A stretch of 64,000 nucleotides of DNA from Aneurinibacillus sp. Ricciae_BoGa-3 (GTDB taxonomy: Bacteria; Bacillota; Bacilli; Aneurinibacillales; Aneurinibacillaceae). Below are positions 2,876 to 58,982 of the stretch, piece after piece. Each line of letters starts with the position of its first letter. Position 1 is the stretch's first letter. The translations under genes were made by a program, and so were the position numbers. The stretch lies in the NCBI RefSeq assembly GCF_028421645.1, contig NZ_CP116888.1, positions 372,001 through 436,000 of the forward strand, in the 5' to 3' direction. Below the pieces are notes generated by a model, which was not told the origin of the DNA, did no database searches, and saw nothing but the letters and a program-made list of their open reading frames with translations.

Positions 2876-2974
2876 ATATAGTATTTATTTTATAGAAGCA
2901 GATGATTAATCGTGAAAATAGAAATCAAATAAAAGGTTTTGGACCTTAATTTTGATAGGGAGGGAGTGATACGT

Positions 2975-10040: not shown

Positions 10041-10072
10041 TTCTACTAAAAAGGAAAGGAGGTAGAAATCGT

Positions 10073-12904: not shown

Positions 12905-12907
12905 ACA

Positions 12908-12940
12908 CACACTCCCTCTTCAAAAAAGAGGGGGTGTCTT
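12908..12940 (+). terminator. Hairpin terminator after virB6-like gene
   Basis: ACACTCCCTCTT (12909-12920) pairs with AAGAGGGGGTGT (12926-12937). The T-tract is short, so read-through into the next transfer gene is possible. Confidence 0.6.
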
Positions 12941-13030
12941 ACATTCGTTTTTTATCCAGTTATGTAAATAACATTATCACATATTATTTGTAGCTAAAAT
13001 TGATAGGTTTACACGAAAGGAGGGCATAGC

Positions 13031-20080: not shown

Positions 20081-21988
20081 ATGAGTGATTATAACGGTAG
20101 CTCCGTTCGAATATTAGAAGGATTAGAAGCGGTTCGTGTCCGACCAGGGATGTATATTGGTAGCACGAATTCAAGGGGATTGCACCACCTTGTTTGGGAA
20201 GTGGTAGACAACTCGATTGATGAAGCCCTTGCGGGATATTGTACGGCAATAAATGTGTGGTTAAAGAAAGATGGTTCCATTACGGTTCTGGATAACGGAA
20301 GAGGCGTTCCTGTGGATAGACATCCCGATAAGTTAATCGCTACAGAACGTATTCTTTTTACTGTCTTGCATGCGGGAGGTAAATTTGACAATGACACGTA
20401 TAAGGTGTCAGGTGGTTTGCATGGTGTGGGGGCTTCTGTTGTCAATGCGCTATCAAGCTGGTTAGAAGTTGAAGTTTATCGGGATGGTAAACTGTATCGG
20501 GATAGATATGAAAAAGGAGGCAATCCCACTGTCGATTTAGTCGATGGGCTTCTGGTTCCCATTGCTGATACAGACAAAAGAGGAACAAAAGTTTCGTTTA
20601 AACCTGATGACACTATTTTTGAAACGGTTGAGTTTAAAGCAGACATTATTAAAAAGCGTTTACGAGAATTATCCTTCCTCAATAAAGGGCTTTTGCTCAC
20701 CTTTGAGGATGAAAATACGGGTGAAAAAGTTGAGTATTATGAAGAGGAGGGGATAGTCGGTCTTGTTCGTGAACTCAATAAAACGAAAGACATCTTAAAT
20801 GATGATGTGGTATACGTAACAAGTAAATCCAATAACATTGAAGTGGAAATTGCATTTCAGTATACGAATGAGTTTACAGAAACCATCCTTTCTTACTGCA
20901 ATAATATCAATACGGTTGAAGGCGGAACGCATGTCAGTGGTTTTAAAACTGCTTTTACCCGTATCATCAATCAATATGCAAGAGAAATTGGCGCACTAAA
21001 AGAAAAAGAGGATAACTTTGAAGGAAAAGATGTCCGAAACGGGATAACCGCAATTGTTTTGGTAAAACATCCGAATCCGCAATACGAAGGTCAAACCAAA
21101 ACAAAATTAGGTAACTCCGATGCAAGGGGAGCCGTTGATGAAGTATTTAGCGTGGAGAGTCAAAAATTCTTTGATAGAAATATTGAAACGTTAAAAAGTA
21201 TTATCGATAATGCAATGAAGGCTTTGAAATTAAGAAAAGCCGAAGAAAAAGTACGTACAAATCTCCTTGCCAATAGTAAGCTTGCGGGAAACGGAAAATT
21301 AGCCTCTGCAAGTAGCAAAAATCCAGACGAAGTGGAACTCATTCTGGTTGAGGGTGACTCTGCTGGTGGCTCTGCAAAACAAGGACGGGACAGAAGTTTT
21401 CAGGCTATTCTTCCGTTGAGAGGAAAAGTTTTAAACGTAGAGAAAAAAGAGGTTGCCAAAGTTATCTCAAATACTGAAATTCAATCCATTATTAACGCAA
21501 TCGGTTGTGGATTTGGTGAGGGATATGGCGATGATTTTGACATTCAAAAGCGAAAGGTTAAAAAAGTTATTATCCTAACCGATGCCGATGTGGATGGAAG
21601 TCATATTCGCACCTTGCTTTTGACTTTTTTCCACCGTTATATGCCTGAACTCATATATGAGGGGCTAATTTATAGAGGGGTTCCGCCGCTTTACAAAGTG
21701 ACGAGTGGAAAAGAGGTTCGTTACTGTTATTCGGATAGGGAGTTAGAAGAACTCAAACCGAAACTAAAAGGTAAAATCGAAATCCAGCGGTATAAAGGGT
21801 TAGGGGAAATGAACCCTGAACAACTTTGGGAAACGACATTAAATCCTCAAACTCGCCTGTTAAAGCAAATCACCATTGAGGACGCTGTGATGGCTGATGA
21901 AATCACGAACGTATTGATGGGGGATAAGGTTGAACCCCGTCGAGATTTTATCTACGAAAATGCCTTGTTAGCTGAAATTGATTTATAA
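20081..21988 (+). CDS. gyrB: DNA gyrase subunit B (type IIA topoisomerase ATPase subunit)
   Basis: 635 residues, full GyrB length. GHKL ATPase motifs: VVDNSIDEAL, DNGRGVPVD and GGLHGVGASVVNALS; TOPRIM motifs: EGDSAGGSAKQGRDR and LTDADVDGSHI; C-terminal YKGLGEMNPEQLWETTLNP and GDKVEPRRDFI, which favour GyrB over ParE. With the GyrA-like protein at 23774 it should make a complete topoisomerase that removes or adds supercoils on the element. AAGGAGAG lies just upstream of ATG 20081. Terminator at 22003. The two subunit genes are separated by 1.8 kb with an inserted minus-strand gene, so they are not one operon. Confidence 0.95.
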   Translation: MSDYNGSSVRILEGLEAVRVRPGMYIGSTNSRGLHHLVWEVVDNSIDEALAGYCTAINVWLKKDGSITVLDNGRGVPVDRHPDKLIATERILFTVLHAGGKFDNDTYKVSGGLHGVGASVVNALSSWLEVEVYRDGKLYRDRYEKGGNPTVDLVDGLLVPIADTDKRGTKVSFKPDDTIFETVEFKADIIKKRLRELSFLNKGLLLTFEDENTGEKVEYYEEEGIVGLVRELNKTKDILNDDVVYVTSKSNNIEVEIAFQYTNEFTETILSYCNNINTVEGGTHVSGFKTAFTRIINQYAREIGALKEKEDNFEGKDVRNGITAIVLVKHPNPQYEGQTKTKLGNSDARGAVDEVFSVESQKFFDRNIETLKSIIDNAMKALKLRKAEEKVRTNLLANSKLAGNGKLASASSKNPDEVELILVEGDSAGGSAKQGRDRSFQAILPLRGKVLNVEKKEVAKVISNTEIQSIINAIGCGFGEGYGDDFDIQKRKVKKVIILTDADVDGSHIRTLLLTFFHRYMPELIYEGLIYRGVPPLYKVTSGKEVRYCYSDRELEELKPKLKGKIEIQRYKGLGEMNPEQLWETTLNPQTRLLKQITIEDAVMADEITNVLMGDKVEPRRDFIYENALLAEIDL

Positions 21989-22002
21989 TATCCTGTGTTG
22001 TT

Positions 22003-22036
22003 AGAGCATGGGGGATAATCTCCATGCTCTTTTATT
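22003..22036 (+). terminator. Rho-independent terminator of gyrB
   Basis: AGAGCATGGGG (22003-22013) pairs with CTCCATGCTCT (22020-22030), then T-rich. Confidence 0.85.
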
Positions 22037-22234
22037 TTGTATTTCATTCATAAAAAATAAAAATAAACAAGAAAAACATCTAATTAAGGAAAAAAATGAT
22101 AGAACTAGTTCATACTTATTCTTACTTTATCTCAAATTATTTCTTTTCTATAAAAGGAGGGCAGTACCCACAAATTTGGATGGCATCAAAAGGACTTAAA
22201 CCATTTTTGTATTCCACAGTCAAAAGTAAAAAAT

Positions 22235-22283
22235 TAGACTATAGTCGAAATTTCTCATAATTCCCGTGATAATACACTATAAT
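22235..22283 (+). promoter_or_regulatory. Operator-like element and -10 boxes in the post-gyrB gap
   Basis: The 327-base stretch after gyrB has no larger gene. It holds TAGACTATAGTCGA (22235-22248), a near copy of the recurrent palindrome, and TATAAT at 22278-22283, before the AGAGGAGGGG ribosome binding site of a very small gene at 22317. Spacing between the palindrome and TATAAT is too long for a simple promoter. Confidence 0.45.
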
Positions 22284-22316
22284 AATATTTTATTTTTTAA
22301 AGAGGAGGGGTTATCC

Positions 22317-22461
22317 TTGAAACAGGAAAACAAACAAAAAAAACGAACCAAACCGTCATTAAAGGTGTTAATGGGTACGTGCAATTGATAAAAATCAAAT
22401 TCAATTTGATTCCGTAACTTCTGGACTCAACAAGTTGGAAACAGCAGTAAATGGGTGTTAA
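22317..22461 (+). pseudogene. Very small gene, probably frameshifted
   Basis: Excellent site AGAGGAGGGG and a TTG start at 22317 begin MKQENKQKKRTKPSLKVLM, but this frame ends at 22388. Dropping one G of the GGG near 22371-22375 would read on as VRAIDKNQIQFDSV to TAA at 22459-22461, about 47 residues. The strong translation start makes a real small basic protein likely. Function unknown. Confidence 0.4.
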
Positions 22462-22485
22462 ATGTAAAATAACGAATGAAAATAG

Positions 22486-22622
22486 AAAAGACCATTCGGA
22501 TTATTGTTTGTGACATACCTTCTACAAATAAAATGTGTAACATTAAATGACTGTTCCTATTGTAACTAATGATTCATGTCTTTTTATATCTTTATGTTTA
22601 CAGAGTACCGATGGTCTTTTTT
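22486..22622. other. Long-range inverted repeat enclosing ~110 bases
   Basis: AAAAGACCATTCGG (22486-22499) pairs with CCGATGGTCTTTT (22608-22620), one bulged base, T-run at the right end and A-run at the left. It lies just downstream of the minus-strand gene 22629-23225. It can be a terminator on both strands with an unusually large loop, or the closing stem of a structured RNA. Confidence 0.45.
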
Positions 22623-22628
22623 GCTGAA

Positions 22629-23225
22629 TTATCGATGTTTAACATGGGTTTTTAGCAATTTGAGTATGGAATCACTGAATTTTTTATCGTCTCCACGTTT
22701 GTATGCCTCGATAAAGTTAATCCATATGCTTGCCAGCATTTTTTCCACAGTCAAAGAATGTCCGTATAACTCGTCCAATTCCATCAATAATATTTCACCT
22801 TTTCGTATGGAGGACTTGTCCATGTCAATTTCATAACGGGTTTTATTGTATCCCTTTGGTTGATAGTGGGTCACTTTTCCATTGTTGACGATTTCGAGGG
22901 GTTCCTCGTTCAAATAGGATTTGTGTAATGTTCGATAAATTTTCATAGGGTCATATTTTTCAATCGAAGAATCCAAGAAGTTAAAATACAACAGCATAAT
23001 AAACTCCTGAATACCGATTTGCTCTGGCGGTTCGTATTTTCTATTAAAGTATTCACACAGCATTTCGGTTCTTAATCCAACAGTAGTCGGAACTTGTACG
23101 TAGAGTGTTGGACTTACCTCTTCTTCTATTCCGATAAAATGACTGATGAAAGAGAGTAAGCCGTTCTTTTTACGATTGCGCAAATAGTGTTGTCCCAATA
23201 CATTGACTTGGCTATAGGCTCTCAT
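22629..23225 (-). CDS. Unknown protein inserted between gyrB and gyrA
   Basis: 198 residues, start supported by AAGGAGAT. Mostly alpha-helical and soluble, with SPTLYVQVPTTVGLRTEML near residue 40, EFIMLLYFNFLDSS near 85 and IWINFIEAYKRGDD near the C-terminus. No family is recognised. It is transcribed against the two topoisomerase genes that flank it, which marks it as an independent unit. Confidence 0.7.
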   Translation of the reverse strand: MRAYSQVNVLGQHYLRNRKKNGLLSFISHFIGIEEEVSPTLYVQVPTTVGLRTEMLCEYFNRKYEPPEQIGIQEFIMLLYFNFLDSSIEKYDPMKIYRTLHKSYLNEEPLEIVNNGKVTHYQPKGYNKTRYEIDMDKSSIRKGEILLMELDELYGHSLTVEKMLASIWINFIEAYKRGDDKKFSDSILKLLKTHVKHR

Positions 23226-23348
23226 TTTTATCTCCTTATCAAAAATGATATGTTACAAGATATGTGCGATTGGAACAAACTATGTATAAATATTGATAGA
23301 AAGGCAACACTATGGATAAATGATACGGAAAATGCAAGGAGGATTTTG

Positions 23349-23459
23349 ATGTTTGGAAAGCGAAAAAAACTTGATAAGGAAACAAAAGAAGTACATAAAT
23401 TGTTGAAAAAATTAAAGAAAAAAACGACCATTAAAATAAAATCAGTCACACATTACTAA
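23349..23459 (+). CDS. Small basic protein (36 aa)
   Basis: ATG 23349 with AAGGAGG seven bases upstream encodes MFGKRKKLDKETKEVHKLL and then a lysine-rich C-terminus, about one third Lys. The well-placed ribosome binding site and the terminator directly after it argue for a real gene. Such a peptide could bind nucleic acid; no evidence beyond composition. Confidence 0.6.
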   Translation: MFGKRKKLDKETKEVHKLLKKLKKKTTIKIKSVTHY

Positions 23460-23483
23460 ACATAAATGTGAGGATAGAGAACG

Positions 23484-23519
23484 AAAACAAGACCTGATAC
23501 GAAAAGGTCTTGTTTTTTT
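23484..23519 (+). terminator. Rho-independent terminator
   Basis: AACAAGACCT (23486-23495) pairs with AGGTCTTGTT (23505-23514), then a T-run. Confidence 0.85.
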
Positions 23520-23531
23520 ATGTTCCGAATT

Positions 23532-23561
23532 TATGATAGGTCTATGATAGGTCTATGATAC
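23532..23561. repeat. 11-bp tandem repeat, 2.7 copies
   Basis: TATGATAGGTC is repeated at 23532-23542 and 23543-23553 with a partial third copy TATGATAC. The period is close to one DNA turn. It sits 100 bases before the gyrA promoter and may be a protein binding site; too few copies for a typical iteron origin. Confidence 0.5.
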
Positions 23562-23660
23562 AATGGGAAGTACTCTCATAGGGTTATGAAACGAACACGA
23601 TGAAATGAAATGAGAGACAAAAGAGGGCAGGACAACCATGTCTGATACCGTAAAATAAAA

Positions 23661-23689
23661 TTGACAGTAAGTTTATAGAAAAATATAAT
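23661..23689 (+). promoter_or_regulatory. Consensus promoter of gyrA
   Basis: TTGACA (23661-23666), 17-base spacer, TATAAT (23684-23689). GTTTATA (23671) and TATAAAC (23704) make an inverted repeat around the -10, a possible operator. Confidence 0.85.
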
Positions 23690-23773
23690 GATGGATAATG
23701 TATTATAAACAGAAACGACAACACATAGGATATAACCTATTTTAGATAGACCTGAAAGGAGTGCGTTTAAAAA

Positions 23774-26029
23774 ATGCCAAAGAAAACGAACCTCGCTCTG
23801 CGAGATGAAAATATACAAAAAGTTGTTTACGATGACGAAATGAAACAATCCTTTATCGACTATGCCATGTCGGTTATCACCCAACGGGCGTTGCCCGATG
23901 TTCGAGATGGATTTAAGCCTGTTCATCGACGGGTTCTTTATGCAATGGATGAATTGGGCTTAGACCCATCCAAATCTTTTCTTAAAAGTGCGAGGATAGT
24001 CGGGGATGTACTTGGTAAATATCATCCACATGGCGACTCGGCTGTTTACGAAACAATGGTTCGGATGACGCAAGATTTTAGTATGTTGCTTCCCCTGGTG
24101 CAAGGACATGGAAACTTTGGTTCCATAGATGGTGACAGTGCCGCCGCAATGCGGTATACCGAAGCAAAGTTATCGCATCCTGCAATAGAAATGCTAAAAG
24201 ACCTAGAGAAAAAAGTAGTCGATTTTCAGGAAAACTACGATGGTAAATTGAAAGAGCCTGTTGTTCTTCCTGCTCGTTTTCCAAACTTACTGGTTAACGG
24301 AGCAAGTGGAATTGCGGTAGGAATGGCAACAAGTATTCCTTCTCATAATTTAAATGAAGCCATTAAAGGGATTTTGCATTACATTGATAACCCTGATATT
24401 ACTGTAGCAAAACTCATGAAACACATTAAAGGTCCTGACTTTCCAACGGGTGGTATTATCATCAATAAAAATGAACTGCTCAATATTTATGAGACAGGTA
24501 CGGGTAGAGTCCGTATTCGCTCTAAACTAGAAATCGAGAATGCGGGATACGGGAGAAGCAATGTTGTTATTACAGAAATCCCCTATACTCAAGCAGGAAA
24601 CAAAACGAAGTTGATTGAGAAAATGGAGGAGTTGGCTAGAGATAAGAAGCTGGATGAAGTTTCCGATATTCGAGATGAATCCTCCAAAGATGGCATACGT
24701 ATTGTTTTAGAGGTTAAAAAGGGTGTCGATATTGACGATTTTCTCAATAAACTCTATAAAAAAACCGCCTTGGAAGATACCTTTAAAGTGAACTTTCTCG
24801 CTCTGGTCGATGGAAAGCCCCAAATTTTAAATTTAAAACAAGTGATTCACCATTTTGTTGAATTCCAAAAAGAAATCACCAGAAAAAAACATGAATATCT
24901 TTTAGCAAAAGCGAATAACGAACAAGAAGTTTTGGAAGGTTTAATTAAAGCGCATGATATCATCGATTTAATTATTGAGATTTTACGTGGAAGTAAAGAT
25001 GTGAAAATGGCGAAAGCTTGTATGATGCAGGGTGTGACAGATGGTATCGCCTTTCGAACAAAGAAATCAGAAAAAGAAGCATCCAAACTTAACTTTACGG
25101 AAAGACAAGCTGATGCCATTTTGGATATGCGCTTACAGAAGTTGATTAGTTTGGAATTGGACAAACTCAATGCGGATTACCAAGAAATTCGTGGAAACAT
25201 AAAAGAATACGAAGATATTTTGGGAAATGAGAGTACGCTACTTAACGTCATCAAAGATTATCTACAAGAAATTGCGAAGAAATTTGGACAGAAAAGAAAA
25301 ACGCAGATTGATGAAATAGAAGTTGTGCAATATGTTGAGAAATTCAAAGAAGAAGAGTTATATGTACTCATGGATAGATTCGGCTACATTAAAACAACGG
25401 ATGTTACCAATTACAATCGGTCTAGTGATGATACGGTGAAAGAGTTTAAGCATACATTCCTTACGATGAATACAGACAAACTGTATCTCTTTACCAAAGA
25501 AGGAAATCTTCACACCGTGAAATTAGCAGATGTTCCAAAAGGAAAAGTTAAGGATAAAGGGGTTCCGATTCAAACGATAACAAAGTTAGGGAAAGAAGAA
25601 GAGGTGTTGGTTGAATCATTCCAAAGCATTGCAGATAAAAAGCTCATGTTTATTACCAAACAAGGGATGGTCAAATGGCTAAATGGAAGTGAGTTTGATA
25701 CCAATCGAAGTATGAGTAGTGCTACGAAGTTAGAAGAAGGAGATGAATTGCTATCGGTTCAGGTGATAGGAGATGTTAAAGATTACTCTCATATTGTTTT
25801 GGTATCCAATAAACGTTTTGCCTTAAAGATAGCCATAGAAGAAATTCCTGAGCTTAAAAAGACCAGCAAAGGCGTCAAAACCATTAGCTTAACTGATGAT
25901 GATACGTTAAATCAAGTGTATCTTTTACGCTCAGATGATAAAGAATCAGTCGTTGAAATAGATGGGAAAGCTGTTGATTTAGTCTCCATGAAAACGAAGA
26001 AACGCAACCAAGTTGGCGTAAAAATTTAA
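23774..26029 (+). CDS. gyrA: DNA gyrase/topoisomerase IV subunit A
   Basis: 751 residues after GAAAGGAGTG. Breakage-reunion domain with [20 protein letters not shown], the quinolone region [14 protein letters not shown] (Ser89 and Glu93, the drug-sensitive type) and catalytic Tyr128 in AAAMRYTEA. The C-terminal propeller (about 500-751) is shorter than in host GyrA and the GyrA box QRRGGKG is not visible, so wrapping and negative supercoiling may be weak and the enzyme may act more like topoisomerase IV. Partner of the GyrB at 20081. It should act on the element's DNA in the cytoplasm. Confidence 0.94.
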
Positions 26030-31541: not shown

Positions 31542-31988
31542 ATGCATACGATTGAAAAGGTTATACGAAAAATAAAAGGTGAAGATAAAATCATGGATTT
31601 CTTACTCGGCTCTGGAAGATTAACCAGTAATCCACCTGAAATTCGTGAAGTAAACGGATATAAAGTATTAAGTGCCTATGGATTTTCCATGAAGTTCAGC
31701 AATGGGCGGGATAAAAAACCCGACTTTTATGGAATTGAGCTTTGGGGAAAAAACGCAGAATATATGAAAGAACTCGGTTACGAAGGTCAATTAATCGAAG
31801 TGATTGGTCGCATCGAGGTACGACATTTTCATAATAAAGAAGTAAAAATATTGGTTGTTGAGCGATTTCATTGCTTAGAATATAAACCAAAGGAAGTATC
31901 TTTTCAGACTGAAGAAACTTCATTTCAACATTCAAATGGCGATGGAATAAATAAGGAAAAAGATAGTTTTAACGAATTTCCTATTTGA
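31542..31988 (+). CDS. ssb: Single-stranded DNA-binding protein
   Basis: 148 residues after TAGGAGGTATG. About residues 20-110 form an OB-fold of SSB type: LLGSGRLTSNPPEIREVNG, DFYGIELWGKNAEYM, then IEVIGRIEVRHF. The tail is short and ends in NEFPI, recalling the acidic DDIPF tip that SSB uses to bind partner proteins. The N-terminus has about 18 extra residues (an internal Met at residue 18 could be the real start). It should coat single-stranded DNA during replication or transfer. Confidence 0.8.
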   Translation: MHTIEKVIRKIKGEDKIMDFLLGSGRLTSNPPEIREVNGYKVLSAYGFSMKFSNGRDKKPDFYGIELWGKNAEYMKELGYEGQLIEVIGRIEVRHFHNKEVKILVVERFHCLEYKPKEVSFQTEETSFQHSNGDGINKEKDSFNEFPI

Positions 31989-32129: not shown

Positions 32130-33572
32130 ATGGATAAACGCCAATTTGCTGAAGAAGTTATCGAAAGTGTGAGAAGCTTATCATTAGTATCGGTTATCTC
32201 AACAAGAATTAATTTACCACGCCAACGAGGTGTAAATATAAAAGCCCTGTGTCCTTTCCACAATGATAGAAGCATTGGCAGTTTTGTGGTTACGGAGAAA
32301 AAGGGAATTTGGAAATGTTTTTCTTGCGGAGCGGGTGGTGATGCCATTAAATTTGTTGCAGAATTTGACAGCATCAATTATTTACAATCTGCGTTTAAAT
32401 TAGCATTAGAGTTCGGAATTATCAGTAATTGGGAATACGAAGAGTACTTTGAGAGAAGAAGATATTCTAGAGAACAAATCCTTAAAATCGAACGCCGATA
32501 TGAAGAAATCGATAAAAAAAGGTTTGAAAATAATATTGCAGATGAACATACTTTAGATGAAGTTTTTCGTTTGTTTATTGAGCAGGCTCCACTTTCGGAT
32601 GAACATCGAGAACATTTGTTAACCGAACGGAATTTAACACCAGACGAAATTGAGGAAGGTTTGTATTTCACCTTTCCAACTCGTCATATCCTAAAGGAAT
32701 TTTCAAAAGCAATCAAGGAAAGATACAATGGAAGCGAAGAAATTCTAACACGAATCCCTGGCTTTTATTATGAAAAAGAAAGCCAACGATTCACTTTTAC
32801 TAAGCATAAGGGTATCGGTATTGGTATTAAAAATGGCAATGGAAAAGTGGTTGGAATTCAAATTAGGCATGACAAAAACGATGAAAACAAAAATCGATAT
32901 GTATGGTTTTCTTCTTCATTTGCCAGTAATGATGAAAAATATGAACACGGAACGTCGTCAGGTGCTCCAATTGATGTTGTATACCCCAAAGAAATCAAAA
33001 ACAATACGGTCTTTATTACAGAAGGTCGGTTTAAGGCGCAAAAAATCGCAACGGAAAAGGGGTCAATTGCGATTTCGGTGCAAGGGGTAGCATCTTGGCG
33101 GGGTATCATGAAAGAGCTAAAACGAATTCCAAGTTCACCGATACTGCAACAATGCTTGCCACAAACCAAACAATTCGCCATCCAAGCCATTTTTGTTGCT
33201 TTCGATGCGGATATGAACTATAAAGTGCAAGTGTTTACGCAGGCAAAACAGATGACGGATTGCCTGGAAGATAATGAGGAACAAAAATTTCCTGTGTATT
33301 ATCTCAATTGGGATGATAGTCTTGGAAAAGGAATCGATGACATTTTAAATAGCGAACAACAAACGGCTATTAAACGTTACGATAAGCAAATATGGGACAA
33401 GTCCTATGAAAATATGATTGAAGACATCTTGGATAAAGAGGACTATTTGGAAATCAAAGATGTTCCAGAAGAGGTCATTCGGAAGTATTTTCATATGCAC
33501 ATGAATATAGCTCCACTCGGAAAAAACGAGTACTCCGAGAAACACAAAAAGTTAAAGGCACTTCAACGATAA
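32130..33572 (+). CDS. DnaG-like primase (CHC2 zinc finger plus Toprim)
   Basis: 480 residues. An N-terminal CHC2 zinc finger (CPFH near residue 41 and CFSCG near 63), followed by GGDAIKFV. A middle helical region of about 150 residues precedes a Toprim-like core with VFITEGRFKAQKIAT, the Glu of the active site, and FVAFDADMN with the acidic pair. Shorter than host DnaG (about 600) and without the DnaB-binding C-terminal domain that I can recognise. It should make RNA primers on plasmid DNA. Site GAAAGGGGTC before ATG 32130. Confidence 0.88.
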   Translation: MDKRQFAEEVIESVRSLSLVSVISTRINLPRQRGVNIKALCPFHNDRSIGSFVVTEKKGIWKCFSCGAGGDAIKFVAEFDSINYLQSAFKLALEFGIISNWEYEEYFERRRYSREQILKIERRYEEIDKKRFENNIADEHTLDEVFRLFIEQAPLSDEHREHLLTERNLTPDEIEEGLYFTFPTRHILKEFSKAIKERYNGSEEILTRIPGFYYEKESQRFTFTKHKGIGIGIKNGNGKVVGIQIRHDKNDENKNRYVWFSSSFASNDEKYEHGTSSGAPIDVVYPKEIKNNTVFITEGRFKAQKIATEKGSIAISVQGVASWRGIMKELKRIPSSPILQQCLPQTKQFAIQAIFVAFDADMNYKVQVFTQAKQMTDCLEDNEEQKFPVYYLNWDDSLGKGIDDILNSEQQTAIKRYDKQIWDKSYENMIEDILDKEDYLEIKDVPEEVIRKYFHMHMNIAPLGKNEYSEKHKKLKALQR

Positions 33573-33600
33573 CGGAGGAACACACCTCCGTTATTTTTTT
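33571..33600 (+). terminator. Rho-independent terminator
   Basis: AACGGAGG (33571-33578) pairs with CCTCCGTT (33585-33592), then a T-run. Confidence 0.9.
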
Positions 33601-33698: not shown

Positions 33699-35348
33699 AT
33701 GGTAAAGATTTTGGTGACGGTTGTCGGAAACGGCACAAAGGATACTGGAAAGTATAAAGTGGCGATTGGGGATAGGGTTCTATTAAAGAAAGAGCCTGAG
33801 AATGAATTTGATGCAAAGGCTATTCATGTATTCTTAGAAGATGAAAGCGAAAGCGTCGGGTATGTGGCGAATAGCCCCAATACCATTCAAGAAAATTGTC
33901 AATCGGCTTTACAAATCCATAACTTGTTTGAAATTACAAATTATGCTAAAATTGTAAATAGCACGAAAGTTCGGTATCGGAACGGAAGAGAATCGAATGC
34001 CTATATCTGCGAACTTGAAGGAATCGAAGCAAACAACCAAAAAGGGGAGACTATAAACATGGCACAAGAAATCAAATTCAAATTAGCTGGCGGAAAAACG
34101 GTATATCCAAATAAATTCAAGTTGGCAGATGAATTAAAAAAAGGAATTCAACCGTCTGTAAAACTAGTCAGTGAAGGCGATAAGATTGTAGCTTACTTTG
34201 ATAATGGTCTTTGCGGTTATGTAGATAACCGTAAGCAAGATGACATCTACACGGGTGACGAGCTTAAACACTTGATAACCGAAGAAAAAGTAGCCAAAAT
34301 CACTTCACAAGTGGCGACAAATTTTATCGGAGTCTTACGGCTTGGCGAAAACGAATTAAAAAAGAAAACGGAAGGAAAATCACTAAAAGATGCCATTGAT
34401 TGGGTAACTTCGGAAGGTCTTGCAACAGCAGACGAAGTACGGGAGCGGGTGACATACATGGAGAAGTTTGGGGTCACGGAAAAACAAATGACCACTCTTT
34501 TCCAATCGTATAAAGTGTACGACAGCGAAGTTGCGAAGCGGATTAATAAACCGAAAACCCTGTATCAAGATAGTTCGGGCATCCTCAAAAAAGCCATTGC
34601 CTACATGAACATCAAACGGAATCTGTTATTTGAAGGTGACCGAGGCGTAGGGAAAAACGTGTTAGTTGAAACACTATCATGGCTCTACAAGCGTCCGTTG
34701 TATGAGTTCTCCGTGAACTCACAACATGATAATAACTCTCTGCTTGGTGGGAAAACGATTGAATCGGAAGTAGGCGAAGATGGAGTTGAGCGTAACAAAA
34801 TGTCCTATGACCCTGATGTTATTATTCAAGCGGCAGAAGTTGGGGGCATTCTAAACTTTGATGAATTTAACACATCATTTGGACATGTTATGAGCTTGTT
34901 TAACTCCCTCTTGGATGACAGGCGCAGAATACAAGTTCCAGGCTATAAAAACATTGTAGCGGATGATAATTTTATGGCGATTTCCACCCAAAATAAGGAA
35001 TATCAAGGAACGTTTGAGAATAACGAAGCAACGATTGACCGTTTCGTTCCAATTTTGTTTCCTACGCTTAAAAGTATTGAAGATGTATTACAGGTAAAAG
35101 TTCCTGGTATCCCATACAGCATGTTATCACAATGCCAAAAATTATTTGCAGGCATTAAAAAGAACGTAGAGGATGGGGAAATATCAGAAAAAGCCATTTC
35201 CATTCGTGGATTTATTGATGCTTGTACGGTAGCAGTTGAACAAGACATTCCATTAAAGGATGCTTTGATTGACAACGTTGCGAATAAAGCACTAGACACG
35301 GATGAACGAAAAACCATTAGGGATTCGATTGAAGACATCATCGGATAA
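33699..35348 (+). CDS. HIRAN-MoxR/CbbQ AAA+ ATPase
   Basis: 549 residues after CAGGAGGGA. The N-terminus is HIRAN-like (EPENEFDAKAIHVFLED, then SVGYVAN); a second, weaker copy may follow at about 120-190 (KIVAYFDNGLCGYVDN). The AAA+ domain (about 290-500) is of the MoxR/CbbQ type: Walker A GDRGVGKN, where the usual Ser/Thr is Asn, and Walker B region GGILNFDEFN. HIRAN domains bind DNA ends or 3' ends. MoxR-type ATPases act with VWA partners to remodel other proteins, and such a partner is the next gene. HIRAN fused to MoxR is unusual to my knowledge. Confidence 0.85.
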   Translation: MVKILVTVVGNGTKDTGKYKVAIGDRVLLKKEPENEFDAKAIHVFLEDESESVGYVANSPNTIQENCQSALQIHNLFEITNYAKIVNSTKVRYRNGRESNAYICELEGIEANNQKGETINMAQEIKFKLAGGKTVYPNKFKLADELKKGIQPSVKLVSEGDKIVAYFDNGLCGYVDNRKQDDIYTGDELKHLITEEKVAKITSQVATNFIGVLRLGENELKKKTEGKSLKDAIDWVTSEGLATADEVRERVTYMEKFGVTEKQMTTLFQSYKVYDSEVAKRINKPKTLYQDSSGILKKAIAYMNIKRNLLFEGDRGVGKNVLVETLSWLYKRPLYEFSVNSQHDNNSLLGGKTIESEVGEDGVERNKMSYDPDVIIQAAEVGGILNFDEFNTSFGHVMSLFNSLLDDRRRIQVPGYKNIVADDNFMAISTQNKEYQGTFENNEATIDRFVPILFPTLKSIEDVLQVKVPGIPYSMLSQCQKLFAGIKKNVEDGEISEKAISIRGFIDACTVAVEQDIPLKDALIDNVANKALDTDERKTIRDSIEDIIG

Positions 35349-35368
35349 TACTTTCAGAATAAGACAAA

Positions 35369-35397
35369 AAGGTAGGAGAAATGAAAGCTCCTACCTT
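35369..35397 (+). terminator. Hairpin between the MoxR and VWA genes
   Basis: AAGGTAGGAG (35369-35378) pairs perfectly with CTCCTACCTT (35388-35397). The T-tract is poor, so it may attenuate rather than stop transcription and lower VWA partner expression. Confidence 0.65.
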
Positions 35398-35417
35398 CCC
35401 CTTATCTTGTCACACAT

Positions 35418-35430
35418 AACAGGTTTATAT
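35418..35430 (+). promoter_or_regulatory. AACAGGT leader motif
   Basis: AACAGGTTTATAT, followed by GGGAGAGATTTACTTATG at the start of the VWA gene. Confidence 0.45.
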
Positions 35431-35453
35431 ATACAAAAGGGAGAGATTTACTT

Positions 35454-37868
35454 ATGAATACGACAGCATCGATAAAAGCGATTGAACGGGTACGCCGATT
35501 TTTTAATCGTCAAAATGTACACAAGCTGTTAATGGGAAGGGTTAGCTTTTTGGTTCCAGATAGAAGCGATATCAATTTGGTGCTTAATCCTGGTGGTGGC
35601 TCTTACACAGATGGGAAAACCGTAACACTAGGGCTTCCTGAGTTGTTTTATGATAAGAGCTATGAAGAAATGTATATGGCGTTATGGGCATTAGCAGGAC
35701 ACGAAACGCAACACATCAATTCTTCTGATTTTACAGCGTTTGTTCAATTCCAAAACGATATGTCAACCTACTTTTCTAAAAATCTTAAACTGCCTGGTTC
35801 CTACGGGCAGAAGATAGCAAAGCATGTTGCTAACTCCGTTGAGGATGGACGTATTGAGAAGATTCTTGTGAATCGTCTTCCTGGTTATCTCAAAAAAATA
35901 CAATTTTTAAATGGTTCCATTCGAGAAGCACAGCCTATTGAGGGCAAATCTGAATTAGGGGATTTCCTCTATACCATCACGATGCTTTCCGTAACGGGTC
36001 TTTATCCAAAAGATTACGCCAAGTTTTATAAGGGTACGGAACTGGATGCGAACATCAAAAAAATTAAAAAGGATATCATTACAGGAATAAACGCCGTTAG
36101 TTGTAAACAATGTTTGATGGTTTGCCAAGAAATCATCGAAAAAGTTGAGGATTATCTGATTAAATTGATTGGACAACAAAATCCAGAAGATAATCAATTT
36201 ATCCAGAACATTCCGCAACAGCATGAATTTACAACGAGTGAAGAAAAAGAGCAAAACGCCTCTCGTTCCATATCCACTCACTTCAAGCCTGAAAAGAAAG
36301 AGGAAGAACAAGAAGAACCACAAGAAGGTCAAGGTTCGGGTTCTTCTGCAGGCGAGGAAAAAGAGGAGGAGAATAAAGAGGAACAAAAGGGAAAAGGAAA
36401 AGGCAAATCCGAGAAAGAGAAATCCGAAAAGGATAAGTTATCGGACGGAGAATCACAAGAAGGGGAACCTTCCGAAGAGAATGAACAGCAGGAGGGGAAT
36501 CAAGGAGGAAAAGACGAAGAGAAAGAAGAATCGGACGAAGCCAATTCGAAAGAGAACGAAGAAGGTGAAGAGGATTCAGAGGATTCCTCCCGTTCGGAAG
36601 AAAACAGCAAGGACGATTCAGATGAACCAGCGAACGGGGAATCGGATAAAGAAACGGATGAAAAATCAGAGGGAGACTTTGGTGAGCAATCAGACGAAAA
36701 CTCCACTGAAGAATCCACTGAAGAATCCAATAATAAATCCGACACTGATTCGAATAGCGATTCTGACGAAAACTCCAACACTTCGGATGAAGAAGGGAAA
36801 TCCCGTAACAAACAGCCTCAATCGGAATCTGAATCAGAAAGTCCGTATCCACAAGGCATAGACCAAGATGAAGAGGATGATTTTGAAATCGATGAAGAAG
36901 CAATTAGAGCGCGGATGAAAGAAATTACGGATGATGTTCTGGAAGAAGCCAAGCGGAAGATGGAAGAGGAATTTAAAAATCCTAAAACGAAATCCTCAAA
37001 GAACAATAAGGACGAAGAAATTTCGCTTGAAGAAGTAAAAGAAATTGAAAACCTCTACCGCAATCAATATGTTCGGCAATTTAAGGAAATTAAGGGCTTC
37101 AATCGAACTTTTGCGCTTCCTGCAGATATCAAACGTGAAGGGGCTAAATTCCGCAAAGAAGTTGAGAAGATTTTTCGTAATAAAGAATCCTTGACCTTGC
37201 GTGGACAGAAACAGGGCATATTGGATACCACAAATCTTTGGAAGTTTGGTGTAAAAGACTACAACCTGTTTGTAAAACGCACACCACCCATTACAACCGA
37301 TTATGTAGCGTATCTTCTACAAGATGGTTCGGGTTCGATGGTCTCTAATGAGAAACAGTTTCATTCGGCTAAAGCTTTGTCAGTCATGGAGGAAGGGCTT
37401 AAAGGAATTATTCCATTTAAGGTCACAACGTTTTCTGTTCAAGGTGCAGTGATGCACTATACCGCTAAGGACTTCAAAGATAACAGCATGACGAAAAATT
37501 ACAGTTATAGCTTTCACAGAATGAGACAAGCGAGTGGCGGCAACAAAGACGGATATTCAATTCGAGTGGCTACTGCAGAGCTTATGAAGCGACCTGAAAA
37601 AGATAGAATTTTGATTGTGCTCTCAGACGGACTTCCTTCTGATTACAATAAAGGGCAAAGGGAAGGAATGGTAGATGTTAAGCAGGCAGTTAAAGAAGCT
37701 AGAGCGAAAGGTATTCATGTTGTTTCGTTAATTTTTGGGACAGATAGTTTCCGTGAAGGAAATATCGACTTGTACAAGTATATGTATGATAAAAACATCA
37801 TTTCTTGTAGTCCTGAAGAAATTACAAAAAACCTGGTAAAAACACTTAAAAAAATCATTTCGAGATAA
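35454..37868 (+). CDS. CobT/NorD-like VWA protein with HExxH site
   Basis: 804 residues. The N-terminal domain (about 1-250) has GHETQHINSSDF, an HExxH metal site, and NSVEDGRIEKIL, the E/DxRIE motif seen in CobT/NorD-type partners of MoxR ATPases. Residues about 265-470 are a very acidic Glu/Ser/Asp-rich low-complexity linker. The C-terminal VWA domain (about 610-804) has an intact metal-ion motif DGSGSM and LIVLSDGLPSD. It should work with the HIRAN-MoxR ATPase as a chaperone-like pair. Whether the HExxH site cuts peptides or only binds metal is open. Confidence 0.85.
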   Translation: MNTTASIKAIERVRRFFNRQNVHKLLMGRVSFLVPDRSDINLVLNPGGGSYTDGKTVTLGLPELFYDKSYEEMYMALWALAGHETQHINSSDFTAFVQFQNDMSTYFSKNLKLPGSYGQKIAKHVANSVEDGRIEKILVNRLPGYLKKIQFLNGSIREAQPIEGKSELGDFLYTITMLSVTGLYPKDYAKFYKGTELDANIKKIKKDIITGINAVSCKQCLMVCQEIIEKVEDYLIKLIGQQNPEDNQFIQNIPQQHEFTTSEEKEQNASRSISTHFKPEKKEEEQEEPQEGQGSGSSAGEEKEEENKEEQKGKGKGKSEKEKSEKDKLSDGESQEGEPSEENEQQEGNQGGKDEEKEESDEANSKENEEGEEDSEDSSRSEENSKDDSDEPANGESDKETDEKSEGDFGEQSDENSTEESTEESNNKSDTDSNSDSDENSNTSDEEGKSRNKQPQSESESESPYPQGIDQDEEDDFEIDEEAIRARMKEITDDVLEEAKRKMEEEFKNPKTKSSKNNKDEEISLEEVKEIENLYRNQYVRQFKEIKGFNRTFALPADIKREGAKFRKEVEKIFRNKESLTLRGQKQGILDTTNLWKFGVKDYNLFVKRTPPITTDYVAYLLQDGSGSMVSNEKQFHSAKALSVMEEGLKGIIPFKVTTFSVQGAVMHYTAKDFKDNSMTKNYSYSFHRMRQASGGNKDGYSIRVATAELMKRPEKDRILIVLSDGLPSDYNKGQREGMVDVKQAVKEARAKGIHVVSLIFGTDSFREGNIDLYKYMYDKNIISCSPEEITKNLVKTLKKIISR

Positions 37869-39217: not shown

Positions 39218-39247
39218 GATTATATGATAAATCGGGAGGGAAGCACC

Positions 39248-42200
39248 ATGATAGAAATTAAAAATGGGAGTGAAGTCGTTTTAGAAAAAGGTTCGTTTCT
39301 GGATGTTATGTTAGAAGATACACATCAACAGCCTTTGCTTACTTTCTCCTCAAATGGAACTAAATTGGATACGGTTGAAGCAGGAGAAGCCCTTAACCTC
39401 TTTCAAAGAAGGCAAAAACTCAAAGCGATTGTAAAAGAGATAACCGAAACGGGAATGTCGGTAGAAATTGTTCGATGGGCAGATATTCACCGAAAAAGCG
39501 GTTTTAGTTTATTAAAAGCAAGCAGTCACATTAAAGATATCGTGGAGAAAACGGAACATGTCGGAGCGTTAACCGATGAAGGCGTTATGTTTGGTGCGGT
39601 GACCTATTACAAGAAGATGAAAGAAGCAGATAAAAAGGCGATTGTTGGATTCGAGGCATTTACAGAATCCATTGATGGCGCACAAGAAGCTCACCACCTT
39701 CTCCTGTTAGCAATGAACGCACAAGGCTTTAAAAACCTGACTAAACTAACCACGATGGGTTACGAACACGTTTTTGAAAGCCCGCAGGTCTCTTATGAAA
39801 TGTTGGAACGGTATGCAGAAGGAGTTATTGCTACTTCTTCCTATTTAGATGGAGAAATTGCAAAATGTCTTCTAAATGGAGACTATGAATCAGCGAAACG
39901 AGTGGCGTTAAAATTATCTTCTATTTTTGGAAAAGAGAATTTTTATATTGAAATCCAACGACATGGGGTTCAAGATGAACTGACTCTTAACATGCAACTC
40001 ATTCGGTTGGCGAGGGAACTCAATTTAAAAATAGTGGGAGCGGTAGAGAGTCATTATACGAATAAGGAAGATGAACTCGCCCATCAAGCTCTCCTTTGTT
40101 TACAAACAGGGACCACAATGGATGATAATGACCGCCTGATGTTGCCTGGTGAAGGGTATCACATACATACGGCAGAGGAAATGGAAGAATTGTTTTCGGA
40201 TATTCCAGAAGCACTGGATACAACCCTTGAAATTGCCGAAAAATGCAACCTGGTTATAGATTTAGATACGGTTTATATGCCTCACTTTCCTGTTCCAGCC
40301 CCGTACAAAGATGAAGCCGCTTATTTTGAATATCTGTGTTGGAAAGGGTTTGATGAACGCTTTGAAGGGACAGAAAAACAGTCCAGTGCAGAGTATAGGG
40401 AGCGTTTAGAGTTTGAAATCGACACGATTAAAAGCATGGGATTTCCAGGCTACTTCTTAATCGTTTGGGATTTTGTTGATTATGCAAAACGACATGGTAT
40501 CCTGGTAGGACCTGGTAGGGGGTCGGCATGTGGTTCTCTCGTTGCCTATGCTCTCTATATTACGGAAGTAGACCCCATTGAATATGACTTGCTGTTTGAA
40601 CGATTCTTAAATCCAGAACGGATTTCCATGCCTGATATTGACTTGGACTTTGATGATAGAAGACGGGAAGAAGTTATTGATTACGTAAAAGAAAAGTTTG
40701 GAGCACATGCGGTATCTCGCATTATCACGTTTGGTACGTTAGCCGCTCGTGCGGTTATACGAGACATGACAAGGGTACTGGATAAACCTTATTCATTGGG
40801 TGACAAAATTGCGAAATCCATTCCGCAAGCACCTAAAATGACACTCCAAAAAGCCTTCAAGGAAAGCGTGGAATTTTCCAAAATCTATGAACATGACCAT
40901 GAAGCCAAAGAAATCATTGATATGGCTATGAAGCTTGAAGGATTGCCTAGAAATATTTCACAGCATGCATGCGGAGTTATTATTGCACCTTCAGCAGTCA
41001 GTGATTACATTCCACAAATTCTAATCGAGAATGAAGATACAGGTTTAAAAGAGCCAACTACCCAAATCACAATGGCGGAATGTGAAGAATTGGGACTGTT
41101 AAAAATGGACTTCTTAGGTCTTCGTACAATGGGTGTAGTGGGGCGTTGTTTAGCGGATGTCAATAAAAGACGAGCTAAAGAGGGCAAAGAGCCTATCAAT
41201 TTTCTAAACATCCCAACAGATGACTTGCAGGTATATGACTTTATTTCAAAAGGAAATACAGAAGGGGTATTCCAACTGGAATCACCAGGAATGACCTCCT
41301 TCATGAAAGAACTTTTCCAAGATGCGAATAAGTATTTAAGCCTGAAAAGTAAAGAGCAACTCAAAGAAATGGGACGACAAATGTTTGAGCGTTTGATTGC
41401 AGGTATAAGTCTTTACAGACCAGGACCTATCGATGAAATTCCCCATTATATAGAAAACATGCTAAACCCACAGTATATTACGTACGAAACACCTCAATTG
41501 GAAAATATTCTAAAACGGACATATGGCGTCATTGTGTATCAGGAAGAGGTTATGTTTATCGTTAGGGAATTAGCAGGTTTTACGAAGGGGCAAGCAGATA
41601 CTATTCGTAAAGCAATGGGAAAGAAGAAAAAAGAAATCCTTAATGAATACGAAGCCTATTTCATTCATGGAAGTCAAAAAAAAGGCATCGTAGGCTGTAT
41701 TGCAAACGGAATTCCAGAAGAAACCGCCAAGAGTATTTGGGCGAAAATGAAGAAGTTTGCTGAGTATGCGTTCAACAAGAGCCACGCAGGAGGTTACGCC
41801 GAAATCTCCATTCGTACAGGGTGGTTAGCCTTCTATTATCCCGTTGAATATATGACCGCTACCTTAAACTCGTTTATTACAAAAGCAGACAAAATTAAGC
41901 TTTATCTTTCCGTTTGTAAAAAGAAAGGGATTGAGGTGTTGTCACCTGATGTAAACAAATCAAGAGAAGTGTTTACGGTAGATGGAGATGCCATTCGTTT
42001 TGGACTCATGGGTATTAAAAACATGGGGAAAGTCTCAACCGATGTTATTGCTGAACGAGATGCTAGAGGAACCTTTAAGGATTTTCAAGACTTTGCGGAA
42101 CGCATGGCAAAACACTTTAAAGTGGATAAACGAATGCTTGAAGCTCTGGTTTATTCAGGTGCGGTGGATGATTTTGAGGGAACACGAAAAGCTAAATTAT

Positions 42201-42998
42201 CCGTTCTACCTGAGATATTAGATTCAGCATCTATCGAGAAGAAAAATTATCAATCTGGACAATTGGATTTGTTTTCGCTATCCGATGATTTTGCTGAATT
42301 TAAACATATTGCCATTCCAGAAGTTGCAGAGTTCGATAAAAAAGTTGAAGTTGGAGAAGGAAAAAGAATTTGCTGGTTTTTATGTAACGGAGCATCCGTT
42401 GGACGATTATATGGAATACTTCGTTCGAGAAGGCGTATATGAAATTGGGTTTTTGTCGCATAAGGAAGACGAATCATTCGCAGACGAAAGCAGTGCCGTT
42501 GCTTCTTACAATTACGACGGAGAAAAGGTAAAAATAGCAGGTATTATAAAGGAATTAAAGCTTTTTTATACGAAAAAAGACCAAAAACCGATGTATGTGT
42601 ACTTATTGGAGGATAAATCAGGTGATATGAAATCCGTCGTCTTTAATGACCGCCTCGAACTAAATCAAGACAAACTGGTTGATGGCAAAGTTGTTATTGT
42701 CGAAGGTCAACTGAAACAAGATGACTTCGGAATTCAAATTATTGTGCGCAACATGTATGATATCGAAGCTCTAGCTAAAAGTGAAAAACCAAAAGCCATT
42801 TGGATACGCCTTATACACAAACAACAGTTTGAAGAAGTCAGCAAAATTTGCAAACAAAATCCAGGAGATTTACCTGTATATCTATACTTCAACGGTAAAG
42901 CATTTGAATCCAACGGAAAAATCAATTTAAATTTTGCGACGTTTAGTAAACTTCAAGAACATTTTGGTGAAAATGTCAAAGTGACCTATCACAAATAA
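39248..42998 (+). CDS. dnaE: DnaE-type DNA polymerase III alpha subunit, frameshifted
   Basis: About 1,249 residues if the frame is restored. ATG 39248 follows CGGGAGGG. Polymerase core with MPDIDLDFDD (catalytic acids), GPGRGSACGSLVAYAL, ISLYRPGPIDEIP and FNKSHAGGYAEIS. The reading frame breaks in the A6 run at 42338-42343: the first frame ends at 42442, while the next frame carries the expected EKEKEFAGFYVTEHPLDDY and a C-terminal OB region to 42998. One A fewer restores it. The N-terminal PHP domain has lost its metal residues (HRKSGFSLL instead of HxHSxYSLL, ALTDEGVMFGAV instead of ALTDHG), so it should lack proofreading. It would replicate the element's DNA. Confidence 0.9.
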
Positions 42999-57376: not shown

Positions 57377-57404
57377 AGTTGTAAATAGGGTGAGGAGTGG
57401 AACC

Positions 57405-58982
57405 ATGAAGACGGAATGGATAGAAACACTAAAGGAAAAGTATCACGCAGGAATTAGCAACCTGTTCATGATTACAGGTAATATTGGTGATTATGCCGTT
57501 CCTGGAATTATGTTTATGGATTACTTGGTTCAGGAACTTTCCCAATTAGGGATGGAAAAGATAATTACCTATGATTATTCAGCGGGAAGTGTGTATCGTG
57601 TTGGAAACGAACTGGAAGAAGGAGAAGAACGGCAGATTGTAAGTGATTGGCTTCAAATGGTAGAAGACTTACAGAACACGGATGGAAAAGTAGCCTACAT
57701 CATTGAATATCCTGAATTTCTTGTTCCAAACGCCAATAATGGATATATCGAAGAAGACACAAAGAAGCGGTTAATCGACCTTCATAAAGTCATTAACAGT
57801 CGGGATTTTTTATTTTCCAACAACATACTGATTTTTGTTACCGAAGTAAAAAGTAGTATTAATAGTATGTTCATTAGTTCCAATGCTCGTACCGTCCCCA
57901 TTGAAATTGATTACCCAAAAGAGGAAGAACGGTATGCGTTTATCCAACATCTAAAAAGCACCAGTCAAAAGCCCGTACGTTTTCTGATTGACGAAAAGAA
58001 ATTCGCCAAACTAACGGCTGGACTGTCACGAGTGAATATTGAGGATATTTACTTATTGGCAGAAGACAAAGGTGTTTTAGATAAAGATAGCATTATGGAG
58101 CGAAAGAAGGAACTCATTTACAAAGAGTTCGGGGAAATCATTGAAATTTATGACACAGAGGGTTATTCCTTGGATAACTTTGCTGGACAGGAACACATTA
58201 AATCCTATCATCGAGAAGTTGTCATTGACCCAATTTTAGAAGGAGATACAACTATTGTTCCAAAAGGACTTTTGTATATGGGTCCTCCAGGGACAGGGAA
58301 AACCTATTTTTCCAAGTGCCTTGCAGGTGACGCCAATATTAACTTTGTTGAATTTAAAATGAGTAAAATATTAGGTAAATATGTAAGTGAATCGGAAAGA
58401 AATCTGGAGAAAGCCATGAACTGTTTTCGTTCATTGGCTCCCGTAGGTGTTTTTATCGATGAAGTAGACCAGGTTCTTTCAAGGGGAGACAGTGATTCCA
58501 ATTCAGTCACCAAAAACTTGTTTGGCATGTTCCTTGCCTTTCTGTCCGAGCCTTCCCATCGAGGAAAAATTCTCTGGATTGGGGCAACGAACTATCCGAA
58601 TAAGTTGGATGAAGCCCTAAAAAGGGCAGGGCGATTCGATAAAAAAATCCCGTTTCTTCCGCCAACTGCAGAAGAGCGCAAAGGAGTTTTTGCGATTCAT
58701 TTAGCCAAGACGAACTTTCCTTATCACGTCACCGATTATACAATTCTTGCGGATAAGACCGAAAACTATACGCAAGCGGAGATTGAAAATGTCGTAGTCA
58801 AAGCTTTAGAAGTAGCGAAACGAAGAAAATCGCAAGCGATAACGGATGAAATCCTTCTTTATGCCATTGATTGTATGATTTCAGCACAAAACGATAACAT
58901 ACAGGAAATGACGGACATTTCGCTAAATGAGTGTAATGATAGAGAATTTTTACCCGTAGAATACCGAAAAAAAACCTCTTAA
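57405..58982 (+). CDS. Cdc48/FtsH-like AAA+ ATPase
   Basis: 525 residues; ATG 57405 follows GAGGAGTGG. The C-terminal AAA+ module (about 265-490) has Walker A GPPGTGKTYFSKC, Walker B VFIDEVDQVL and arginine-finger region LKRAGRFDKKIPFLPP. The N-terminal 230 residues look like a degenerate first AAA domain (LFMITGNIGDYAVPG, EYPEFLVPNANNG), lacking a Walker A. It lacks a protease or membrane helix, so it should act as a soluble unfoldase or disassembly factor. Terminator directly after it. Confidence 0.87.
   Translation: MKTEWIETLKEKYHAGISNLFMITGNIGDYAVPGIMFMDYLVQELSQLGMEKIITYDYSAGSVYRVGNELEEGEERQIVSDWLQMVEDLQNTDGKVAYIIEYPEFLVPNANNGYIEEDTKKRLIDLHKVINSRDFLFSNNILIFVTEVKSSINSMFISSNARTVPIEIDYPKEEERYAFIQHLKSTSQKPVRFLIDEKKFAKLTAGLSRVNIEDIYLLAEDKGVLDKDSIMERKKELIYKEFGEIIEIYDTEGYSLDNFAGQEHIKSYHREVVIDPILEGDTTIVPKGLLYMGPPGTGKTYFSKCLAGDANINFVEFKMSKILGKYVSESERNLEKAMNCFRSLAPVGVFIDEVDQVLSRGDSDSNSVTKNLFGMFLAFLSEPSHRGKILWIGATNYPNKLDEALKRAGRFDKKIPFLPPTAEERKGVFAIHLAKTNFPYHVTDYTILADKTENYTQAEIENVVVKALEVAKRRKSQAITDEILLYAIDCMISAQNDNIQEMTDISLNECNDREFLPVEYRKKTS

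Follow-up and report, generated by a model that had tools for sequence, protein, structure and literature searches.

The window analyzed here, a 64,000-nucleotide stretch of the Aneurinibacillus sp. Ricciae_BoGa-3 genome, encodes an ATPase of the MoxR/CobS/NorQ type and a VWA-domain partner in two adjacent genes on the forward strand. The first gene (33699..35348) specifies a 549-residue protein in which open reading frame (ORF), Pfam and alignment evidence delineates a HIRAN domain, a second small domain and an AAA+ module. The second (35454..37868) specifies an 804-residue protein for which ORF, Pfam and alignment evidence indicate an N-terminal region with an HExxH motif, an acidic linker and a VWA domain. 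Together with the pairs from loci L002, L003, L004, L005, L006 and L008, the window pair constitutes a clade of seven, whose ATPases form a single group in the tree of AAA+ modules (support 99/98).

The N-terminal HIRAN domain of the ATPase (residues 1-112; 33699..34034) was detected by Pfam, profile-profile and Foldseek comparisons. In the window protein the Pfam model PF08797 matches residues 16-58 with an E-value of 7e-5 and 23.0 bits in hmmscan, slightly below its cut-off of 24.7, and the same region reaches 25.2 bits in a six-frame search of the genome. The cognate ATPase of Bacillus sp. M6-12 (L008), which is 63% identical to that of the window, scores above the cut-off (33.0 bits, E 5.6e-8). 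A profile of the domain, compared with some 30 loci of other Bacillota that contain HIRAN, gave a probability of 95.9% (E 5e-9); a few of these extracted loci are out of frame, which is expected to weaken the match rather than to create one. The top PDB sequence match is the bacterial protein 3k2y at a weak E-value of 0.04, and a Foldseek search with a low-confidence model of the domain recovered the HIRAN domain of HLTF and 3k2y with probabilities of 0.93-1.00 (E ~0.006-0.05). Among these matches are 4s0n and 4xzf, which judging by the entry titles are crystals of the HLTF HIRAN domain with DNA. The window and L008 versions also display an N-x-F/Y-D motif, shortened in L002 and L003, which we take to participate in the binding of DNA 3' ends by HIRAN domains. 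The HIRAN of HLTF is described as a DNA 3'-end-binding domain (PMC9503650).

An earlier note on this DNA had read one or two HIRAN-like domains from the sequence. The first of these is, on the profile and above-threshold L008 evidence, a genuine N-terminal HIRAN that holds up under sensitive comparison, with the fold matches in its favor. The second corresponds to a domain defined by alignment at residues ~120-220 (34056..34358) that is conserved across all seven homologues. In a low-confidence model its strands and helices are predicted to follow one another as in the first domain, giving it a putative HIRAN-like topology. Its comparison with the HIRAN profile yielded a probability of 0.2% and the PDB search returned no HIRAN match for it, so that profiles lend no support to a second HIRAN; from the modeled topology it is a possible second HIRAN. 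The structural models used throughout are of low confidence, with 3-4 sequences per alignment.

The AAA+ module (34545..35345) matches the Pfam AAA_5 family with an E-value of 8e-14, and its Walker B Asp-Glu (34860..34865, by alignment), arginine-finger motifs and paired VWA gene place it in the MoxR/CobS/NorQ type. The best PDB sequence match of the ATPase profile is Midasin/Rea1. As the earlier note had remarked, the Walker A motif is unusual: aligned as GDRGVGKN at residues 313-320 (34635..34658), it has an Asn at the position of the Ser/Thr. The GxxGxGKN signature is invariant in all seven members of the clade, and GKN likewise occurs in L007 and L021. On account of this invariance it is more than a chance substitution, and a sequencing error is ruled out. 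In four other plasmid or genome pairs (L009, L024, L025 and L026) the Walker A motif instead ends in GKD and an Ala replaces the Asp of Walker B. This exchange looks compensatory, with the carboxylate shifted from Walker B to Walker A, and so suggests that these sites may still bind magnesium and nucleotide. The ATPases of the GKD-containing pairs bear an N-terminal HxC...CxH motif with the look of a SWIM-type zinc finger that Pfam does not recognize, and the pairs of L024-L026 come after genes for NYN-domain proteins, near replication-relaxation genes.

The partner shows an N-terminal HExxH with a downstream acidic motif, a linker and a C-terminal VWA domain next to the MoxR gene, which is the organization of the MoxR/metallopeptidase-vWA pairs of mobile elements and agrees with what the earlier note had read from the sequence. 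Alignment places HETQH, a predicted zinc site, at residues 83-87 (35700..35714) and EDGRIE, which would provide the third zinc ligand, at residues 130-135 (35841..35858). The linker, recognized by its acidic, low-complexity composition, spans residues 260-478 (36231..36887); its 219 residues are 37% Asp/Glu, and its length varies from ~50 to 230 residues among the clade relatives. The VWA domain (37296..37865) has the sequence DGSGS at residues 624-628 as its metal ion-dependent adhesion site (MIDAS) and is NorD/CobT-like by profile and Foldseek comparisons, with NorD as the top Foldseek match (E 1.7e-7). Both the AAA+ and the VWA parts of the system match structures of NorQ/NorD and CobS/CobT.

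Neither HExxH nor EDGRIE varies among the partners of the clade (7/7). Beyond it, HExxH with an Asp aligned at position 131 is found in L007, L009, L024-L026, the CobT of phage RHEph10 and pRUMAL01, the distant phage and plasmid versions having the HExxH and a downstream (E/L)D motif ~30-60 residues apart. The chromosomal-type pairs L022 and L023 lack HExxH, as do L021 and L030. Retention of the motif in the versions on mobile elements and its loss in the chromosomal pair, which we take from its context to be of the YojN/YojO type (L023), is the pattern expected if the site works in the former. Judged by its motifs, the partner looks like a metal-dependent protease. The Bacillus pair L023 comprises the same two genes with a related AAA+ module, but has a GKT Walker A and no HIRAN; L022 has the canonical GKT too. 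L023 comes from a record typed as a plasmid of B. velezensis AP3, where the pair stands beside sucA/odhB in a stretch of ordinary metabolism genes.

The HIRAN domain is less uniformly distributed in the clade than these motifs. Within an alignment of six members that includes the window, it was recognized in three, namely the window and, by alignment, L002 and L003; L008 also has it. The ATPase of L004 (P. thiaminolyticus) as annotated is without HIRAN, and the N-termini of L005 and L006 apparently do not match the HIRAN model, with L006 retaining a DPKA...NIGF stretch at the equivalent place. As L004 and L005 are nested within the clade, this distribution suggests loss or decay of HIRAN rather than several gains. 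Few replicons carry the full-length fusion: a search at an E-value of 1e-45 through 400 genomes sampled from the class recovered only the window's own genome, and searches of viral contigs added a single distant relative, L007. The carrier plasmids and L008 came from targeted searches.

On all seven of these Bacillales plasmids or contigs the pair adjoins genes for components of the replisome, namely a single-stranded DNA-binding protein (SSB), a CHC2 primase and/or DnaE. In the window, Pfam matches identify the SSB (31542..31988), the DnaG-type CHC2 primase (32130..33572) and the DNA polymerase III alpha subunit DnaE (39224..42998), all on the forward strand. The order SSB-primase-ATPase-VWA recurs in six of the seven (the window, L008, L002, L003, L004 and L005), and dnaE is next or near in six: no other large gene comes between it and the pair in the window, L008, L002 and L006, and it lies ~3 kb from the pair in L005 and ~6 kb in L003. 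Small genes on the opposite strand separate it from the pair in the window. Even L006, at 32% identity, keeps the ATPase-VWA-DnaE order, and the window, L008, L002 and L003 have a thymidine kinase gene in front. Thus, the homologues reside beside SSB, primase and DnaE genes rather than in a denitrification or CbbQ operon, and an assignment to a nor/cbb operon is ruled out by the neighborhood. The dnaE gene of the window is split by a frameshift beside an A run near 42340, either a real mutation or a sequencing error; its ORFs of 1072 and 237 residues jointly span the intact 1260-residue homologue of L008. Between the primase gene and the pair, a forward-strand hairpin of 11 pairs with a T tail (33568..33595) resembles an intrinsic terminator by consensus match only, and from its position after the primase gene the pair probably forms its own transcription unit.

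Distant pairs also occur near replication or recombination genes, in a listing without a random control: phage RHEph10 has DnaE and a ligase there, L009 has a CHC2 primase and DnaN, L007 has a RepA-like, AAA_25/RepB-primase-like protein and an SNF2 helicase, and pRUMAL01 and pBYT1-1 have topoisomerases. Other relatives, L021, L022 and L023, lie elsewhere.

The window occupies positions 372001-436000 of contig C2, which at 721,710 bases is one of the two contigs of this 5.7 Mb genome and bears a relaxase-like gene of the Replic_Relax family, in agreement with the plasmid location that the earlier note had assumed. Besides the SSB, primase and DnaE already described, genes in the window include those for gyrase A and B, RuvC, thymidine kinase and a ClpX-like ATPase, and those for a VirB4/TraG-like ATPase and a cell-wall enzyme of SLT/M23 type. 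The most fitting reading of C2 is a megaplasmid of conjugative type that has replication genes of its own. The genome has no Pfam match to the HK97 capsid, portal or TerL, a search limited to common families that jumbo-phage proteins could escape. The smallest complete carrier of the pair, the 127 kb Geobacillus plasmid pGspE55-1, codes for PrgI, DUF87, a type IV secretion coupling protein, Tad-type pilus components, ParM and a topoisomerase; its annotation lists no virion genes, though divergent ones might be present among its hypothetical genes.

We believe that the best explanation for this system is a DNA-targeted unfoldase/metalloprotease serving plasmid replication, and place the probability of this reading at about 0.42. 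It is favored by the HIRAN in the ATPase, the invariant HExxH and EDGRIE together with the persistence of the former in distant mobile versions, the structural matches to NorQ/NorD and CobS/CobT, the replisome neighborhood with its echo in distant relatives, and a smallest carrier plasmid devoid of annotated virion genes. In NorQ/NorD, NorQ is a hexamer, a finger of the NorD VWA domain has been assigned to its pore, and the MIDAS binds acidic residues of the target and is needed for its activation, with ATP hydrolysis driving the remodeling (PMC9976466). Built like NorQ/NorD and CobS/CobT, the machine would be a hexameric AAA+ ring onto which the VWA domain of the partner docks, the flexible acidic linker tethering the predicted zinc domain at the partner's N-terminus. 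N-terminal HIRAN domains on the ring would carry the machine to ends or junctions of the megaplasmid DNA, the MIDAS would grip a carboxylate on the protein to be processed, the ring, driven by ATP, would unfold that target, and the HExxH domain would cleave the exposed chain. Candidate targets are roadblocks, crosslinked proteins or stable replication complexes encountered during plasmid replication or transfer. Domain make-up, conserved motifs, pairing and replisome setting are observed, while the ring, the binding of DNA and zinc, proteolysis and the substrates are inferred. A more doubtful elaboration casts the pair as a replication-coupled protease of mobile elements for DNA-protein crosslinks or roadblocks, combining a HIRAN-guided MoxR unfoldase with a VWA-tethered HExxH protease, within a wider class of "CobS/CobT-like" phage and plasmid pairs that are taken for cobalamin or virion-assembly genes but would serve DNA replication. 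In eukaryotes, p97 with SPRTN/Wss1 forms pairs of an unfoldase and a DNA-dependent protease. SPRTN/Wss1 with p97/Cdc48, in which an HExxH protease and DNA targeting meet an AAA+ unfoldase, would be comparable in role by analogy, without a claim of homology. Midasin/Rea1 likewise couples AAA_5 modules to a MIDAS domain, but is a single giant polypeptide of ribosome assembly; Midasin, too, has an acidic linker.

Several points weigh against a DNA-targeted unfoldase/metalloprotease. A Pfam search matched no peptidase family to the partner's N-terminus, so that only motifs and context predict an activity as a zinc protease. For HIRAN domains of bacteria the function is putative, the structure models are of low confidence, and the lack of HIRAN in L004 and its non-recognition in L005 and L006 imply that targeting to DNA by this domain would be dispensable in some members. 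Further, the terminator-like hairpin parts the pair from the primase, and the neighborhood can have been inherited by descent inside one plasmid family. The earlier note's suggestion of remodeling at DNA ends or stalled forks is supported in part: it fits the replisome context, but goes beyond direct observation and relies on a HIRAN that is not universal in the clade.

NorQ/NorD, which likewise combine a MoxR ring with a partner having a disordered linker and a C-terminal VWA domain, remodel their target without a reported protease (PMC9976466), and the pair might do the same without cleavage by the HExxH site. This we regard as an unlikely though serious alternative, supported by the match of both parts to NorQ/NorD; the HExxH and acidic motif are, however, kept in highly divergent mobile-element versions in which the linker and other regions diverge. 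Moreover, NorQ/NorD serve nitric oxide reductase and have neither HIRAN nor a replisome context, and the N-terminal part of NorD has no obvious homologues (PMC9976466). Action on host proteins, in takeover or competition for replication, with HIRAN merely localizing the machine to plasmid DNA, appears improbable: replisome parts of its own might put a large replicon in competition with the host, but such targets are conjectural. An anti-invader or inter-plasmid conflict role, in which incoming DNA ends are sensed and the proteins bound there attacked, is quite improbable and, having been raised in the earlier note, found no positive support. Its appeal stems from the MoxR-vWA cores that PMC8195603, citing Kaur et al. 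2020 (PMC7159879), places in conflict systems, and from the HIRAN stretch that PADLOC PDC-M03B has in common with the window ATPase. However, that stretch accounts for all the PADLOC matches, which are to HIRAN-bearing PDC-M03B proteins only, with none for the partner; neither an effector nor a third component (VMAP, iSTAND, TERNS3) of the known MoxR-vWA ternary systems was recognized among the scanned neighbors, for which the specific models were not run; and the pair is conserved beside replication genes.

The group 2.2 jumbo phages possess a MoxR AAA+ and metallopeptidase-vWA pair for which virion assembly has been proposed (Iyer et al. 2021, PMC7824862), a parallel that the earlier note did not draw. 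By its published description this pair (ASV44729/ASV44728) has the identical arrangement, in which a large mobile replicon encodes a MoxR ATPase together with a vWA protein whose N-terminal domain is a metallopeptidase, and would suggest a chaperone and protease for the assembly or maturation of structural proteins. Here, in contrast, the ATPase has HIRAN, a second N-terminal domain and GKN, and the pair belongs to a replication module on a plasmid without recognized virion genes. The carriers look conjugative, as seen in the relaxase-like gene of C2 and the conjugation genes of pGspE55-1, and, along with the missing capsid, portal and TerL matches among common Pfam families, this makes a virion role very unlikely. 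Even less probable, and largely refuted, is an auxiliary-metabolic cobaltochelatase raising cobalamin synthesis, as the PHROG labels "porphyrin biosynthesis" and "CobT" and the proposal that viral cobST genes boost cobalamin (PMC8651126) would have it. The phage CobS/CobT (such as those of Rhizobium phage RHEph10; PHROG 249, 1576 and 17276) are likewise a CobS-like AAA+ and a CobT-like VWA protein with an acidic linker; HEVAH and EDTMIE are present in the RHEph10 CobT, and DnaE is close to the RHEph10 pair as in the window, but its CobS has GKT and no HIRAN, and the VWA region is ~25% identical to that of the window. Cobalt chelation is rejected here on the failure to find CobN in the genome, with the same search positive in control genomes, and on a score of 16.5 bits against the CobS model TIGR01650, whose cut-off is 558.55; the CobT model TIGR01651 gave no match to the partner. 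Nor do HIRAN and HExxH have an evident use in chelation, and the replisome neighborhood speaks against it too.

CobS/CobT-like pairs are common in phages and plasmids, where they are mostly labeled as cobalamin genes or proposed to be virion-assembly chaperones. The HIRAN, the replisome cluster and the replicons without recognized virion genes make a role in DNA metabolism directly testable, and, if correct, the proposed unfoldase/metalloprotease would be a bacterial counterpart of the eukaryotic systems that remove proteins from replicating DNA. The MoxR and metallopeptidase-vWA pairing is already known from jumbo phages (PMC7824862). New, within the literature searched, are the HIRAN fusion, a replisome neighborhood conserved on plasmids and the conservation of a GKN/GKD Walker A; this literature, of incomplete coverage, yielded no paper on a HIRAN-MoxR fusion, nor on pSC2, a related plasmid, and the DNA polymerase it encodes.

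Elsewhere in the window, conjugation-type genes at 8115-15691 encode the VirB4/TraG-like ATPase and an SLT- and M23-domain protein; for this ATPase PHROG gives a terminase match and Pfam favors TraG. The ClpX-like AAA+ protein (2939-4153) has a C4 zinc finger, and genes for gyrase B and gyrase/topoisomerase A are plasmid-borne at 20081-26029. A further AAA ATPase of 530 residues with a lid domain (E 4e-31) is encoded at 57390-58982.

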